Source: Fidelibacterota bacterium
Lineage (GTDB): Bacteria > Fidelibacterota > Marinisomatia > Marinisomatales > TCS55
Length of the DNA: 40,067 nucleotides
Assembly (NCBI GenBank): GCA_018674655.1
Contig: JABGZQ010000036.1
Location: forward strand, 1 to 40,067
Reading direction: 5' to 3'
A program made the translations under genes and the position numbers. Under the pieces are notes generated by a model. It was given only the letters and a program-made list of their open reading frames with translations, was not told where the DNA came from and did no database searches. Position 1 is the stretch's first letter, and each line of letters starts with the position of its first letter. Positions 2,931-38,892 of this stretch are shown here, piece by piece.

Positions 2931-3887
2931 TTATCGAGATCCGCCAGTTTTATCGTCTTTGTCACCTCGTTTGTCGCCGCAATGTTTGGAATACTGCATA
3001 CCTAAAGCTGTGTATATCTTTATAATCTCAATTTGTCTTTCGCTGAATAGTGCTTCAATTTTACTATTCCGATCGGCAATTAGTTGTTTTAACGCATCTT
3101 TTAAATCTTCTCTACTCATGTCTTCAGCTTTTGCCTTTTCTATCAATGCCTTTTGCGCTTCTCCCGATTCATTATTGATGATCTCCAATCCAGATTCCTG
3201 ATCTGATGTCATTTCTAAAGCACTAACCATGGCATCGTGAGCAACCTGTCTCATTTCTTCCATTTTCTGCTTCATGTCTGCCCGCATGTCTTCAAGCTTT
3301 TGTCTTTGTTCATCCGTCAGGAGCGCTTCAATTTCTGCTCGCATGGTTGCTTCCAGTGCCTCTAATTCAGCTTTCGCTGCTTCTCTATCTATAGTGCCAT
3401 CTTTCGCCTTTTTCATTACTTCTTCCATCTGGCTTTTATAAGAGTCCATAATGGATTTAAGAGACTCTCTCTGTGCTTCGTCTAAGACAGCAAAAACCGA
3501 CCGAAGATCCATACCACCTCTATCACCGCCTGGGCCTCCACGTGCCTTGGCATCCATACCACCCCCATATAAATAGGGTACGTTATTGTCATCCATCCAT
3601 CCGAAAAGTTTTTCTTTTTCTTCATTAGAAAGTTTACCCTGCATTTCTGCAGAAACTTTCCATAGGAAGCCAGGATCACGACGATGTTTACCATCTTTTC
3701 CGTGGCGATTCAACGCGTCATTCAGGGCATTAATACTTTTTTTACTGAGCCCCACATCCGTATTTAATCCCTCAGAGAATGCCTGCAGTTCAGGGTCGTC
3801 AACAAGGATTGTTTCATCCTTCATTAACTTATCACAACCGATGGTCGCAATTATTGCAATGGTTAATAATGTAGACAGTTTTTTCAT
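2931..3887 (-). CDS. Spy-like lipoprotein, paralogue A
   Basis: A 318-residue lipoprotein: signal sequence with lipobox ATIGC (lipidated Cys18), followed by Asp at +2. Residues about 45-95 form a conserved block (LSKKSINALNDALNRHG, PGFLWKVSAEM, LSNEEKEKLFGWMDD) shared with the next gene. The rest is mostly charged helix with repeated LTxxQ-like turns (LDEAQRESLKSIMDSYK, LTDEQRQKLEDMRADMKQ, FSERQIEIIKIYTAL), as in Spy/CpxP proteins, and a Lys/Asp/Gly-rich tail with one extra Cys. AAGGA about seven bases before the ATG supports the start. It is monocistronic, with its own terminator and a candidate ECF promoter. A periplasmic chaperone-like or sensor-modulating role is inference; no enzyme motif is visible. 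Confidence 0.75.
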   Translation of the reverse strand: MKKLSTLLTIAIIATIGCDKLMKDETILVDDPELQAFSEGLNTDVGLSKKSINALNDALNRHGKDGKHRRDPGFLWKVSAEMQGKLSNEEKEKLFGWMDDNNVPYLYGGGMDAKARGGPGGDRGGMDLRSVFAVLDEAQRESLKSIMDSYKSQMEEVMKKAKDGTIDREAAKAELEALEATMRAEIEALLTDEQRQKLEDMRADMKQKMEEMRQVAHDAMVSALEMTSDQESGLEIINNESGEAQKALIEKAKAEDMSREDLKDALKQLIADRNSKIEALFSERQIEIIKIYTALGMQYSKHCGDKRGDKDDKTGGSR

Positions 3888-3929
3888 AATCTTATCCTTC
3901 TCAGCTAAAGTTCGGTATCAATTTAGGGC

Positions 3930-34481: not shown

Positions 34482-34516
34482 TGAACAGGTAAAAGTTCAC
34501 CGTTTATTTTATTTTA
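34482..34516 (+). terminator. Weak hairpin between convergent genes
   Basis: AAC(A)GGT (34484-34490), an 8-base loop and ACCGTT (34499-34504) form a short stem followed by TATTTTATTTT. It lies in the 38-base gap between the convergent serine hydrolase and TonB receptor genes and could end the plus-strand transcript. Confidence 0.35.
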
Positions 34517-36820
34517 AAATCGATAAGAAATATTCACAAATGAGTTTCGAGTTGCACCTGGCCAATGAAAGGCTTGGAAACCGTTCCATTCGTACCCATA
34601 CCCATAAGTGGAATAAAGTTTATCAAATACATTATTTACTTTTATCAATACGTCCAACCCACCCCATTGGTATTTGGCACCCACATTTAATAAGCCATAA
34701 GGATTAATCATTCCCGGTTCAGAATTTGCATTATCCACATACATATGGCCCACCCGTTTCCAATGGGCAAATAAAATCATATTTTTTCGAACATGATAAT
34801 TAAAATTAATATTAAAAAGTGTGGATGGGTTATTGGGCAGACTTTTTCCATTGGTAAAATAATTCATGACCAATGCGCCATTGGCATTTAAACTAAACTT
34901 AGGGTTAAAAATAAATGCCGCTTCCCACTCAAATCCAGCATGATCAGTGGAATCGGCGGAATAATAATCGTATTCTCCTTCTTGAGATACATTTATATTT
35001 TTTAGCTGTTCATTTAGATATTGAATTCGATAACTGTTGAACCGTGCATGACCTTTTGAAAAAGTAAAATCAATTCCCATTTCTAAATCAGTAATAACTT
35101 CCGCCGCTGCCATAACAGGTTCTGCCCACACATCATCTGCATTAATAATCTGATTATCCGCCGGTTCTTTCTGCGCTTTTCCCCAATTCACAAACCAATG
35201 GAGAGAATCCCCTATCTCCCAAATCATGCCAATCCGCGGATTTAAGAAATCCCAGTTTGCTGATAAACTATGTCCTGCAGCATGACCAATCGTTTCTTGT
35301 TCCAAGGTCCATCGGTGGCTTTGATTTTGAATATCCGCCATGATGGTAAAAGGCTGACCTATGGGATGCCACACCAAATGACCAAATCCTGTCACAGAAC
35401 TTTTCTTACCCACATAGCGATAATACCGATACCAATCGTCACCCAGGACAGCCACCAAATTCACGTCAGAAAATTGGGATACTTCTCCATAGTGATCTCC
35501 CGTATATTTCCGAAATTCTCCACCAATGTCTATACGAAGTTCCTCGTTTTTCCATGTAACCGTGGGTACAACACCATAATAGTTATTATCAATCCATTTT
35601 CTTCGAAGCAAATCAGTGGATAGGTTTTGCTCTTGTGAATCCGTGTATTGATCATTTATATCCAAATTATACGAATAATAATCACGTCCGGTTTTTTGCA
35701 CTTCGTAATATCCTTTTCCCCTAACCAGATAACTGACATTCCGAAAAAATATATTATTTGAAAGACGGGATGTGGTATTGAGTGAATATATTTGTTGAAC
35801 GAAATCATCGGTAAACGCTTGATACCCGGCCCGGCGTTTCATTCTATCGTTTATATCATTTATATGAATTCCATCCCATAAAAGTTGGGTATTTTCATAG
35901 CCAAGGTGCGCCCTGAATTTGTTTGTGAATTTTTCTCCACGATGTTCTAGACCAAAGAACATTCCCTTTTGTTTTGAATTGTGGTTTTCACGGTACCCAT
36001 CTGATTCTACTTGAGAAGTGCGAAATGTTAAACTAAGATCCTCTCCTAAATCTTTTCCTGAACGGTATCTCAGGGATGTCTTAGAGGTATTCCATTCTCC
36101 TGAACCGTAAGAAACTTTTATTTCTCGCTTATCGCTGGCGATTTGGGTATTCACATTGATGGATCCGCCAAAGGCAGATGAACCATAAAGGCTATTCCCA
36201 ATCCCACGTTGAATTTGGACATCACTGGCATCTGCCAAAAGATCACCATGGTCCACCCAATACACTTGATGGCTTTCATTGTCATTCAAGGGAACACCAT
36301 CAATCATGACCCCAATCTTGCTTTGGTCAAATCCACGAATAGAGAGATAAGAATAACCGGTACCGTTCCCACTTTCACTATAGGCCCACACGCCAGGTTC
36401 GGATGCGAGTATCATGGGTATATCCTCCACCGTATATCGTGTTTCAATTTCTTTGGCCGTTAAATTAGAGAAGGATACAGGTGTTACGCCCGCAATTGCC
36501 CGCATTGCATTGACAGTAATTGCATCACTCTCTAACACTGTTGGCTCCATAATAATTGTCATGGATGGACGCGGATTGGTGGAAATCTTTTTATATCCTA
36601 TATATGAAAATGATATTTCAAACCCGTCTTGAACGATTATTGAAAAGGCACCCGTTTCATCTGATGTTGTACCATTATCGCCGGCAACAATATTGACACC
36701 CATAAGATGCACATGCGTTTCACCATCCACAATGATACCATTGACTTCTGTGGATTGTGAAAAAATCTGAGTGAAACCCAGAAAAATATAACCCATTAAA
36801 ATTCGAATATACTGTTTCAT
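34514..36820 (-). CDS. TonB-dependent receptor, TPP-regulated (probable thiamine or precursor uptake)
   Basis: A 768-residue outer-membrane receptor with a signal peptide (MKQYIRILMGYIFLGFTQIFSQ). Next comes a carboxypeptidase-regulatory-like domain (about 25-95, VNGIIVDGETHVHLMGVNI and GAFSIIV). The plug (about 105-225) has LASEPGVWAYSESGNG, YSYLSIRGFDQSKIGVMIDG, VQIQRGIGNSLYGSSAFGG and INVNT. The rest is a 22-strand-type barrel rich in aromatic strands, ending RNSFVNISYRF. A TPP riboswitch ends ten bases before the ATG, so expression should fall when thiamine pyrophosphate is plentiful. That points to thiamine, or its pyrimidine or thiazole precursor, as the cargo. No thiamine synthesis gene or inner-membrane partner is visible in the window. 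Confidence 0.93.
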   Translation of the reverse strand: MKQYIRILMGYIFLGFTQIFSQSTEVNGIIVDGETHVHLMGVNIVAGDNGTTSDETGAFSIIVQDGFEISFSYIGYKKISTNPRPSMTIIMEPTVLESDAITVNAMRAIAGVTPVSFSNLTAKEIETRYTVEDIPMILASEPGVWAYSESGNGTGYSYLSIRGFDQSKIGVMIDGVPLNDNESHQVYWVDHGDLLADASDVQIQRGIGNSLYGSSAFGGSINVNTQIASDKREIKVSYGSGEWNTSKTSLRYRSGKDLGEDLSLTFRTSQVESDGYRENHNSKQKGMFFGLEHRGEKFTNKFRAHLGYENTQLLWDGIHINDINDRMKRRAGYQAFTDDFVQQIYSLNTTSRLSNNIFFRNVSYLVRGKGYYEVQKTGRDYYSYNLDINDQYTDSQEQNLSTDLLRRKWIDNNYYGVVPTVTWKNEELRIDIGGEFRKYTGDHYGEVSQFSDVNLVAVLGDDWYRYYRYVGKKSSVTGFGHLVWHPIGQPFTIMADIQNQSHRWTLEQETIGHAAGHSLSANWDFLNPRIGMIWEIGDSLHWFVNWGKAQKEPADNQIINADDVWAEPVMAAAEVITDLEMGIDFTFSKGHARFNSYRIQYLNEQLKNINVSQEGEYDYYSADSTDHAGFEWEAAFIFNPKFSLNANGALVMNYFTNGKSLPNNPSTLFNINFNYHVRKNMILFAHWKRVGHMYVDNANSEPGMINPYGLLNVGAKYQWGGLDVLIKVNNVFDKLYSTYGYGYEWNGFQAFHWPGATRNSFVNISYRF

Positions 36821-36828
36821 AATATAGC

Positions 36829-36910
36829 CGTTCCTACGCTGGCATTATCCAGATCAGGTACATGGGTGTTTTCTCAGCCATTTTGACCTGGTTCAAAACA
36901 GCACCCCATT
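36829..36910 (-). promoter_or_regulatory. TPP (thi-box) riboswitch
   Basis: On the minus strand the conserved thi-box elements appear in order: GGGGTGC, a variable P3 hairpin (TTTTGAACCAGGTCAAAA), GGCTGAGA, ACACCC, then ACCTGATCTGGATAATGCCAGCGTAGGAA. This is the full aptamer. Its 3' end (TAGGAA, complement of 36831-36836) is also the only Shine-Dalgarno-like sequence before the receptor ATG at 36820, and no terminator hairpin with a T tract fits in between. Control at translation initiation is therefore the likely mode. Confidence 0.93.
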
Positions 36911-37026
36911 TGATATGGGAAATTAATATTTACTGGTTAGGTATTCCAACTGATGGTTTACCCTCATGCTTGTTTCATTCATGACAATTCCCCTATTTTC
37001 ATGTATTAATAACTCAAGGAAAATCT

Positions 37027-38892
37027 ATGTCCAATAAACAATATCCAGAAATTACCATTAAAGCCGTCCTTTTAGGTATTCTGCTTTCTACGATTCTTGC
37101 AGGCGCCAACGCCTACCTCGGCCTTTTTGCCGGAATGACCGTATCCGCTTCCATTCCAGCGGCTGTTATTTCTATGGGAGTTTTATCTTTATTTAAAAAA
37201 TCAAACATATTAGAAAACAATATTGTACAGACGGCTGCATCAGCCGGGGAATCTTTAGCCGCAGGTGTCATTTTTACTATTCCTGCACTTGTACTGCTCG
37301 GATACTGGACAACTTTTGACTATGTTGAAGTGGCCAAGATTGCCGCAATCGGTGGTGTAATCGGTGTCCTGTTCACGGTTCCATTGCGCCGCGCTTTAAT
37401 TGTGACAGCGAAATTGAAATACCCGGAAGGTGTTGCAACGGCGGAAGTTTTAAGGGCTGGTGATGAAGCCAGAAAAGGTGGATCAAATGATGGGTCCGGC
37501 GGTTTAAAAACAATTGGACTTGCCAGTTTGGTTGGCGGTGTCATGAAGGTATGTCAACAGGGATTTGCCATGTGGCATGCAGAAATGGCCGGCGCTGCAG
37601 TGGTGGGCAAATCTATTTTTGGGATTGGAACTGATTTATCTCCGGCCTTGATTTCTGTGGGATACATAGTGGGTAGAAATATCGGGATCCTTGTTGTGGC
37701 TGGTGGATTGATTTCCTGGGCAATTGCTATCCCCATTTATTCTGCCATGGTGGGATTTGAAGGAGATGCTTTGGATTCCGCCTGGAATATCTGGAATTCT
37801 AAAATTCGATATTTAGGTGTGGGCGCCATGGTTGTGGGCGGTGTCTGGTCTCTCATAAAATTATTTAAGCCATTGGTCGAAGGTATCAAAGCCAGTCTGA
37901 ATGCAGTCAAAAATCGTTCCAGTGATAAAGATGTTCCTTTGGAAGAACAGGACATGCCCATCAATTATGTAGCCATTGCACTTCTGGCGCTATTGGTTCC
38001 TGTTTTTCTCCTTTATTTGGATATAATTGGATCCGTAGGAATTGCCGCTTTGTTGTCTGTTATTATGATGGTGTTTGGCTTTTTATTTTCTGCCGTTGCC
38101 GCTTATATGGCTGGTGTAGTTGGCTCATCTAATAACCCAATTTCTGGTGTAACAATAGCTACAATTCTATTTGCATCCCTATTATTATTGGCTATCCTTG
38201 GAACCGGCTCCGGGGTAGGCGCTGCCAGTGCCATAATGGTGGGAGCCGTTGTATGCTGTGCCGCCGCCATTGGCGGAGACAATCTCCAGGATTTGAAGGC
38301 AGGAAATATTCTTGGTGCAACGCCGTGGAAACAGCAGGTCATGCAAATTGTGGGTACCCTGGCAGCCGCAGTCGTACTTGGCTTGGTTTTAGATATTCTC
38401 CATACGGCATATACCATTGGATCTCCCACCCTTTCTGCCCCTCAAGCCACATTGATGAAGTCGGTTGCAGATGGTGTATTTACAGGAAATCTTCCATGGA
38501 ATTTTGTCTATATGGGTGGTGTTATTGCTATCATTTTAATTCTAATAGATTTGAGACAAGAAAAAGTCGGGTCTGACTTTCGGGTTCCTGTATTAGCGGT
38601 TGCTGTGGGTATCTATTTGCCTATCACCTTGACTGTACCCATATTTATTGGCGGAATGATTAACCACTTAGGTAAAAAAGCCGGTGGTTCCAAATCATCT
38701 GAAAAACGCGGGCTCCTTATGGCATCAGGTTTAATTACCGGTGAAGCACTTATGGGTATTCTTGTGGCAGTACCAATTTTCCTTACAGGACAAAAAGACT
38801 GGTGGCCTAATTTTGACGGATTTGGATTGGTGGGACCAGCCTTATTTATTGGCGTAATATATTGGGTCTATAAATCGGTCTCAAAAAAGTAG
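37027..38892 (+). CDS. OPT-family oligopeptide transporter
   Basis: A 621-residue polytopic membrane protein with about 14-16 hydrophobic segments. EITIKAVLLGILLSTILAGANAYLGLFAGMTVSASIPAAV (divided by eye into TM1 and loop) and NNIVQTAASAGESLAAG match bacterial OPT-family proteins, as does YPEGVATAEVLRAGDEA. The family moves peptides or metal chelates with protons; the bacterial cargo is often unknown. AAGGAAAA precedes the ATG. The adenosine deaminase gene starts four bases after its stop, so both are on one transcript. The gap to the divergent receptor (36821-37026) holds the riboswitch and presumably promoters for both directions. Confidence 0.92.
   Translation: MSNKQYPEITIKAVLLGILLSTILAGANAYLGLFAGMTVSASIPAAVISMGVLSLFKKSNILENNIVQTAASAGESLAAGVIFTIPALVLLGYWTTFDYVEVAKIAAIGGVIGVLFTVPLRRALIVTAKLKYPEGVATAEVLRAGDEARKGGSNDGSGGLKTIGLASLVGGVMKVCQQGFAMWHAEMAGAAVVGKSIFGIGTDLSPALISVGYIVGRNIGILVVAGGLISWAIAIPIYSAMVGFEGDALDSAWNIWNSKIRYLGVGAMVVGGVWSLIKLFKPLVEGIKASLNAVKNRSSDKDVPLEEQDMPINYVAIALLALLVPVFLLYLDIIGSVGIAALLSVIMMVFGFLFSAVAAYMAGVVGSSNNPISGVTIATILFASLLLLAILGTGSGVGAASAIMVGAVVCCAAAIGGDNLQDLKAGNILGATPWKQQVMQIVGTLAAAVVLGLVLDILHTAYTIGSPTLSAPQATLMKSVADGVFTGNLPWNFVYMGGVIAIILILIDLRQEKVGSDFRVPVLAVAVGIYLPITLTVPIFIGGMINHLGKKAGGSKSSEKRGLLMASGLITGEALMGILVAVPIFLTGQKDWWPNFDGFGLVGPALFIGVIYWVYKSVSKK

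Follow-up and report, generated by a model that had tools for sequence, protein, structure and literature searches.

The window, a stretch of 40,067 nucleotides, is contig C18 of the genome G000 (a MAG of 2.13 Mb in 111 contigs, 90.8% complete). It very probably holds the single-gene thiamine-uptake unit of a thiamine-auxotrophic Neomarinimicrobiota bacterium: a TonB-dependent receptor repressed by TPP at translation, with a symporter and a kinase encoded elsewhere completing the route. TPP-controlled thiamine receptors are already known (OMthi in Bacteroidota, omr1 in marine MAGs, and Caldithrix), and the feature in the window is a further member. What we add is the phylum-wide extent, the implied auxotrophy, and the exchange of receptors; in the literature searched, mostly outside subscription journals, we found no description of TPP-controlled TonB receptors in Marinimicrobia.

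The results indicate that an abundant and nearly uncultured ocean phylum as a whole would depend on vitamin B1 made by others. They also name the gate (the receptor), the probable inner transporter, and the kinase for this phylum. The arrangement could mark whole-thiamine users in ocean metagenomes, setting them apart from HMP users such as SAR11, and it gives a hint for cultivation: add thiamine.

A TPP aptamer overlapping a receptor gene

The features of the window are as follows.

36816..36918, (-) strand: complete TPP riboswitch aptamer (cmscan, RF00059; re-found genome-wide as a single copy)
36872..36877, (-) strand: CTGAGA of the aptamer (read in the sequence; invariant in 15 aligned leaders)
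36856..36858, (-) strand: CCU of helix P4, proposed to act as anti-Shine-Dalgarno (consensus fold and minimum-energy fold)
36832..36835, (-) strand: AGGA, Shine-Dalgarno-like, inside the aptamer and 11 nt before the ATG (read in the sequence; AGG pairs with the P4 CCU)
36766..36782, (-) strand: terminator-like hairpin followed by T6, within the signal-peptide codons, of uncertain significance (consensus scan)
34514..36820, (-) strand: TonB-dependent outer-membrane receptor of 768 aa, relative of the BT2390 family (Pfam plug, OMthi match, AlphaFold2 model)
37027..38892, (+) strand: OPT-family transporter, divergent neighbour outside riboswitch control (Pfam OPT, E 7e-109)

RF00059 (THI element, TPP aptamer) was the only family at or above its gathering score when the window was scanned against Rfam with cmscan. 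The match at 36816-36918 (-) covers the whole model (1-105 of 105) with 55.6 bits and an E-value of 2.1e-8. This is only 1.3 bits above the gathering cut-off of 54.3 bits because the outermost helix, P1, is weak. CTGAGA is the conserved pyrimidine-binding loop of TPP riboswitches, and the window keeps both binding-site sequences, CTGAGA and ACCTGATCTGGATAATGCCAGCGTAGG, unaltered. Moreover, the binding-site columns and the P2, P4, and P5 pairs are invariant across 15 aligned leaders, the window among them. The receptor ATG (36820) lies 4 nt inside the RF00059 match, so aptamer and gene overlap.

The first-pass annotation, made from the letters alone, had placed a complete thi-box directly before the receptor gene and proposed a covariance search and a look for other thi-boxes. 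The full-length match adjoining the ORF at 34514-36820 (-) bears out the first point, and a genome-wide RF00059 search found no TPP element in G000 other than that of the window. A chance match is excluded, since the element is conserved: 51 of the 61 genomes of the order, which span 15 families, carry exactly one copy each. The closest relative found for G000 is a Candidatus Neomarinimicrobiota MAG, with 94% receptor identity (L135).

Mode of control

The 3' part of the aptamer is conserved as GCGUAGG(G)A, which contains the Shine-Dalgarno-like sequence, and over the measured loci 2-12 nt separate its AGG from the start codon (12 nt in the window). This AGG is paired with the CCU of P4 in 15/15 aligned leaders, and the minimum-energy fold of the window leader shows the same P4 arm with the CCU paired. 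Between aptamer and start codon, the window has no room for a separate expression platform. With the AGG for ribosome binding built into P4, a stem of the aptamer itself, a direct block of translation by TPP is probable, and the sequence and its folds are most simply read as occlusion of the ribosome site. Plentiful TPP would bind the aptamer in the leader RNA, and the folded aptamer would sequester the ribosome-binding sequence of the receptor in P4 and stop its translation; with scarce TPP, the leader would open and the receptor would be made. In Bacteroides thetaiotaomicron, OMthi transcripts barely changed with thiamine (PMC5613172), so that repression could be weak or confined to translation.

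Premature transcription termination at a hairpin in the first 60 nt of the coding region, instead of or besides occlusion, seems unlikely to us but is the alternative that fares best. A consensus scan located a terminator-like hairpin with T6 at 36766-36782 (-), within the early coding region of the window receptor. Over the phylum, such hairpins after the start codon are enriched in riboswitch-receptor genes (11/70 vs. 9/299 control genes; Fisher p 2e-4, a value that overstates the enrichment, as the rows are mostly related lineages), and codon shuffles in the same test gave 3.3 ± 1.7 against the 11 observed. Besides, aptamer, start codon, and hairpin are found together in dispersed copies in one genome (G085). 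However, within the window's genus the hairpin is otherwise found only in L142, the nearest relative (L135, 94%) lacks it, and so does the majority of loci. Direct occlusion of the ribosome site remains our preferred reading.

Besides the window, riboswitch-controlled receptor genes with such a hairpin and T run in their first 60 coding nt were seen in L170, L172, L173, L220, L164, L266, L240, L247, and L142.

Probable thiamine auxotrophy and inner-membrane partner

At family cut-offs, ThiC was found in none of the 61 genomes of the order, G000 included, and in only 5 of 150 phylum genomes; nearly all genomes are drafts, and gene absence here rests on the agreement of the whole clade. A family cut-off search found no ThiE in G000. 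Candidate ThiE matches in relatives were rejected: they are weak, below cut-off, and confined to the C-terminal part of frames of 165-338 aa. One borderline ThiE-like match in another genome passes the cut-off only with its neighbours in the frame and was likewise not counted as ThiE.

A thiamine pyrophosphokinase is present in 49 of the 61 genomes, including G000, where it lies on contig C63 (TIGR01378, 108 bits vs. a cut-off of 76). Perhaps thiamine auxotrophy, the earlier annotation had suggested, naming full thiamine synthesis in the genome as evidence to the contrary. With ThiC missing from all 61 genomes of the order, ThiC and ThiE both absent from G000, and the kinase present, gene content makes the auxotrophy of this bacterium well supported.

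The kinase gene is followed by a gene for a sodium:solute symporter (PF00474, E 1e-31), on C63 in G000 and in nearly all of 20 kinase contexts. Two deep lineages (L241, L276) carry receptor, kinase, and symporter in the riboswitch operon, and receptor and symporter share it in L233, L245, L247, L267, L268, L270, L271, and L272. PnuT is the usual partner of OMthi and omr1 receptors but not a required one, as Caldithrix has a symporter. The suggested search for pnuT returned no PnuC/PnuT match (PF04973) in G000 at E 1e-3, and it is the symporter that stands beside the kinase instead. PnuT was also rejected for the other genomes, where PF04973 matches are only partial and the cases examined are proteins of 73-82 aa with three helices and without thiamine neighbours. 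The divergent OPT transporter was discarded too, being outside riboswitch control and without supporting evidence as a partner. Thus, the inner-membrane partner is probably the sodium:solute symporter encoded elsewhere, not PnuT.

The small three-helix proteins (73-82 aa; L094-L096 and L098) match only the C-terminal half of PnuC and are perhaps half-size SWEET/PnuC-like transporters.

In the proposed route, the receptor would move thiamine across the outer membrane on TonB energy, the symporter beside the kinase, on the other contig, would probably take it across the inner membrane, and thiamine pyrophosphokinase would convert the imported thiamine to TPP. The symporter family alone does not fix the substrate, because the TPP-controlled sodium:solute symporter ThiV of SAR11 probably imports HMP and not thiamine (PMC11452348). 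ThiV is alike in its transporter superfamily, its TPP control, and its marine auxotrophic host, whereas the symporter of the window's genome adjoins a thiamine pyrophosphokinase.

Since no coupling enzyme was found to use precursors, the window receptor most likely imports intact thiamine, as judged from gene content and receptor family. Without ThiE precursors cannot be joined, and with the kinase thiamine is usable. Of the predicted uptake of thiamine or a precursor, the thiamine part gained from the grouping with OMthi (below) and from the kinase; the precursor part became less likely with ThiC and ThiE both missing.

That the receptor imports a precursor or breakdown product (HMP, FAMP, thiazole) and not thiamine is very improbable. 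Marine auxotrophs often need only HMP (PMC11452348), an NMT1/THI5-like binding protein (PF09084, E 1.5e-42) is encoded in the riboswitch operon of the relative L147, and the TPP element of L234 precedes another NMT1/THI5-like gene. However, the ThiE needed for joining precursors is missing together with ThiC, the kinase that is present uses intact thiamine, and the Bacteroides OMthi operon likewise couples its receptor with a thiamine diphosphokinase.

Receptor identity and known relatives

In Pfam searches, a TonB plug (PF07715, E 1.8e-17) was found in the ORF at 34514-36820 (-), along with a weak match to a CarboxypepD_reg-like domain at the N-terminus. It aligns with Bacteroides OMthi over its full length (27.6% identity over 711 columns, E about 1e-61, precisely 9e-62). 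G000 encodes 20 plug proteins, and the 19 besides the window receptor are not full-length OMthi relatives; the next best match to OMthi among non-members, the G000 receptor own_L207, has an E-value of 1e-25 over 204 columns of the plug region. With OMthi of B. finegoldii as the query, receptors of the window type were the best matches (E 8e-53 to 3e-83, over most of the length), and reference receptors scored far lower (BtuB E 4e-5, FhuA 0.01, FepA 0.3).

Grouping with siderophore receptors had been put forward as evidence against the thiamine reading, and the receptor groups with OMthi rather than with FhuA, FepA, BtuB, or the other plug proteins of its own genome. A siderophore receptor was ruled out on this grouping, as the matches to FepA (E 1.6e-9) and FhuA (0.001) cover the plug region only, vs. 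9e-62 for OMthi. The cobalamin receptor BtuB was rejected with 59.4 of 599.7 bits (TIGR01779) and 45.1 of 836 bits (NF007926); in the cmscan against Rfam, no cobalamin riboswitch was found upstream of the receptor, RF00059 being alone in the window. Persicobacter plasmid matches were also dropped as OMthi relatives: the stretch examined has no TPP element at the gathering score, and the compared ORF was unmatched.

The AlphaFold2 model shows a plug and a barrel (pLDDT 82.8). A PDB fold search with it returned TonB-dependent transporters generally, with the PQQ transporter PqqU first and siderophore receptors next, and such a model-based match does not decide the ligand of the window receptor. 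General family and fold libraries indeed match siderophore, cobalamin, and PQQ receptors about equally, which would suit a receptor that carries something else (siderophore, cobalamin, nickel) under incidental TPP control. We regard this as highly improbable: the best sequence matches of OMthi are window-type receptors and include none of the genome's other plug proteins, TPP control is kept phylum-wide and is common to an unrelated receptor family in the same slot, and other members stand in operons with kinase and symporter.

For the OMthi family there is experimental evidence: a strain unable to make thiamine needed about ten times as much of it once BT2390 was deleted (PMC5613172). In the plasmid record of B. 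finegoldii, the OMthi operon reads TPP riboswitch, receptor, pnuC, and thiamine diphosphokinase. The window is alike in having the TPP riboswitch directly upstream, with the aptamer running up to the start codon (in L175, the aptamer spans 3814-3910 and the CDS starts at 3911), a full-length homologous receptor, and a thiamine pyrophosphokinase in its genome. It differs in the phylum, in its receptor (27.6% identical), and in being a single-gene unit; moreover, G000 has no PnuC/PnuT match, a symporter beside the kinase, and no de novo synthesis.

Caldithrix abyssi (Cabys_3975-3977) combines a TPP riboswitch, a BT2390-like receptor, a sodium:solute symporter, and a TPP kinase (PMC5317091). The same three functions occur here with the riboswitch, and L241 and L276 hold all of them in one operon. 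Unlike in Caldithrix, the window receptor stands alone with its riboswitch, the kinase and symporter are on another contig, and no gap takes the place of the 163 nt that separate aptamer and start codon there.

TPP-controlled TonB receptors were described in Bacteroidetes genomes and in metagenomes including the Sargasso Sea (PMC2211319); MAGs of SAR86 and Flavobacteriales have omr1 TonB receptors with TPP riboswitches (PMC10881298). These share with the window the riboswitch and TonB receptor in thiamine-dependent marine bacteria, and Neomarinimicrobiota are not named in the parts of PMC10881298 and PMC2211319 consulted.

Two receptor families behind one riboswitch

A second receptor family (type B, as opposed to the window type, type A) follows the riboswitch in G014-G016, G020-G022, G027, G028, G033, G035, G042, G043, and G054. 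Type B receptors are 40-93% identical among themselves and resemble the window type mostly within the first 250-300 residues, at about 24-29%. Searches with both types over the 61 genomes gave nearly complementary results: the two types coexist in G016 alone, where one riboswitch is followed by type B, an NMT1-like gene, and type A (L147), a possible intermediate of a receptor swap.

The OPT gene flanks the riboswitch-receptor gene in most relatives, marking a conserved slot, and many loci of either type occupy this same place, divergent from OPT and ahead of polA. Both types are also found in operons with the symporter. Among plasmids, the closest match to type B comes from Sulfurovum mangrovi (Campylobacterota; L282). 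It lies behind a TPP element of 71.6 bits and is followed by pnuC and by a kinase related to thiamine kinase, the latter scoring under the thiamine-kinase cut-off. This operon resembles ours as a TPP-controlled TonB receptor with pnuC and kinase as thiamine salvage neighbours; it differs in that its receptor is not of the window's family and is about 29% identical to type B. With both types beside the symporter and the Sulfurovum relative TPP-controlled beside pnuC, the two families are independently tied to thiamine.

We consider it likely that the riboswitch is the fixed element and the receptor the exchangeable one, with OMthi-like type A and type B replacing each other, often in the OPT-polA slot. 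If both bind thiamine, the same vitamin gate was supplied in situ by two unrelated receptor lineages, perhaps under pressure from phages or bacteriocins that exploit the receptor. The swap of the two families behind a single riboswitch brings receptor exchange within reach of testing. Predicted thiamine TonB receptors are known to fall into several sequence clusters (PMC2771747), and we found no description of exchange within one riboswitch slot in the literature searched. The tree of the neighbouring OPT gene was dropped as a yardstick for counting swaps, since OPT is exchanged too, and taxonomy labels were used in its place. For instance, in the close genomes of L146 and L152 the receptors are 93% identical and the adjoining OPT genes very different.

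Distribution across the order and the phylum

In the phylum set of 150 genomes (completeness at least 85%), 118 carry a TPP element; a few have two, and G085 has ten. The contexts examined were 41 in the order, a number in other classes and families, and another 19. The gene next after the riboswitch is a TonB-dependent receptor in 40/40 testable contexts of the order, once after a small ORF, and at 75 loci of the phylum, a count that leaves out contig ends and the nine extra G085 copies (in L169, the receptor follows a 101-aa ORF). The view that such receptors are mainly found in Bacteroidetes does not hold against these 75 loci, which span Neomarinimicrobiota.

Among the contexts examined, the exceptions after the riboswitch are genes that are Thi4-like (L244) or ThiD-like (L237), a gene for an NMT1/THI5-like binding protein (L234, which matches the PF09084 protein of L147 at 24%), and an operon starting with an AIR-synthase-like gene (L235a); the names Thi4-like, ThiD-like, and AIR-synthase-like are our reading of the sequences. 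Taken together, the contexts are consistent with the thiamine reading of the riboswitch.

We give very little credence to the idea that the aptamer has decayed to a relic and the receptor is constitutive. In its favour, the score is just over the cut-off with P1 weak, streamlined sister genomes of family f15 have no detectable TPP element, and G060 has a type-B-like receptor at the same place without one. Yet the window retains the binding-site letters and the pairs of P2, P4, and P5, and most relatives keep a single copy.

In family f15, no TPP element is detectable in most of the streamlined genomes, which are about 1 Mb in size. In G060 (L262) and G050, a small ORF containing Cys/His lies ahead of the receptor. 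L236 (G074) has tandem TPP aptamers (1167-1264 and 1383-1484) ahead of a single receptor gene, with about 120 nt between them. In one relative, OPT and the riboswitch flank a 191-aa P-loop protein similar to zeta-type kinases (L142:5882-6457).

Finally, G085 (family f8) has, besides its native copy (L220:3743-3849), about nine extra, partly decayed aptamer copies before unrelated genes (L221-L227), and a DNA search gave 14 places. Several of these copies have a common upstream stretch, plus the start codon and the terminator-like hairpin downstream, and the dispersed copies look like a mobilised riboswitch leader cassette.
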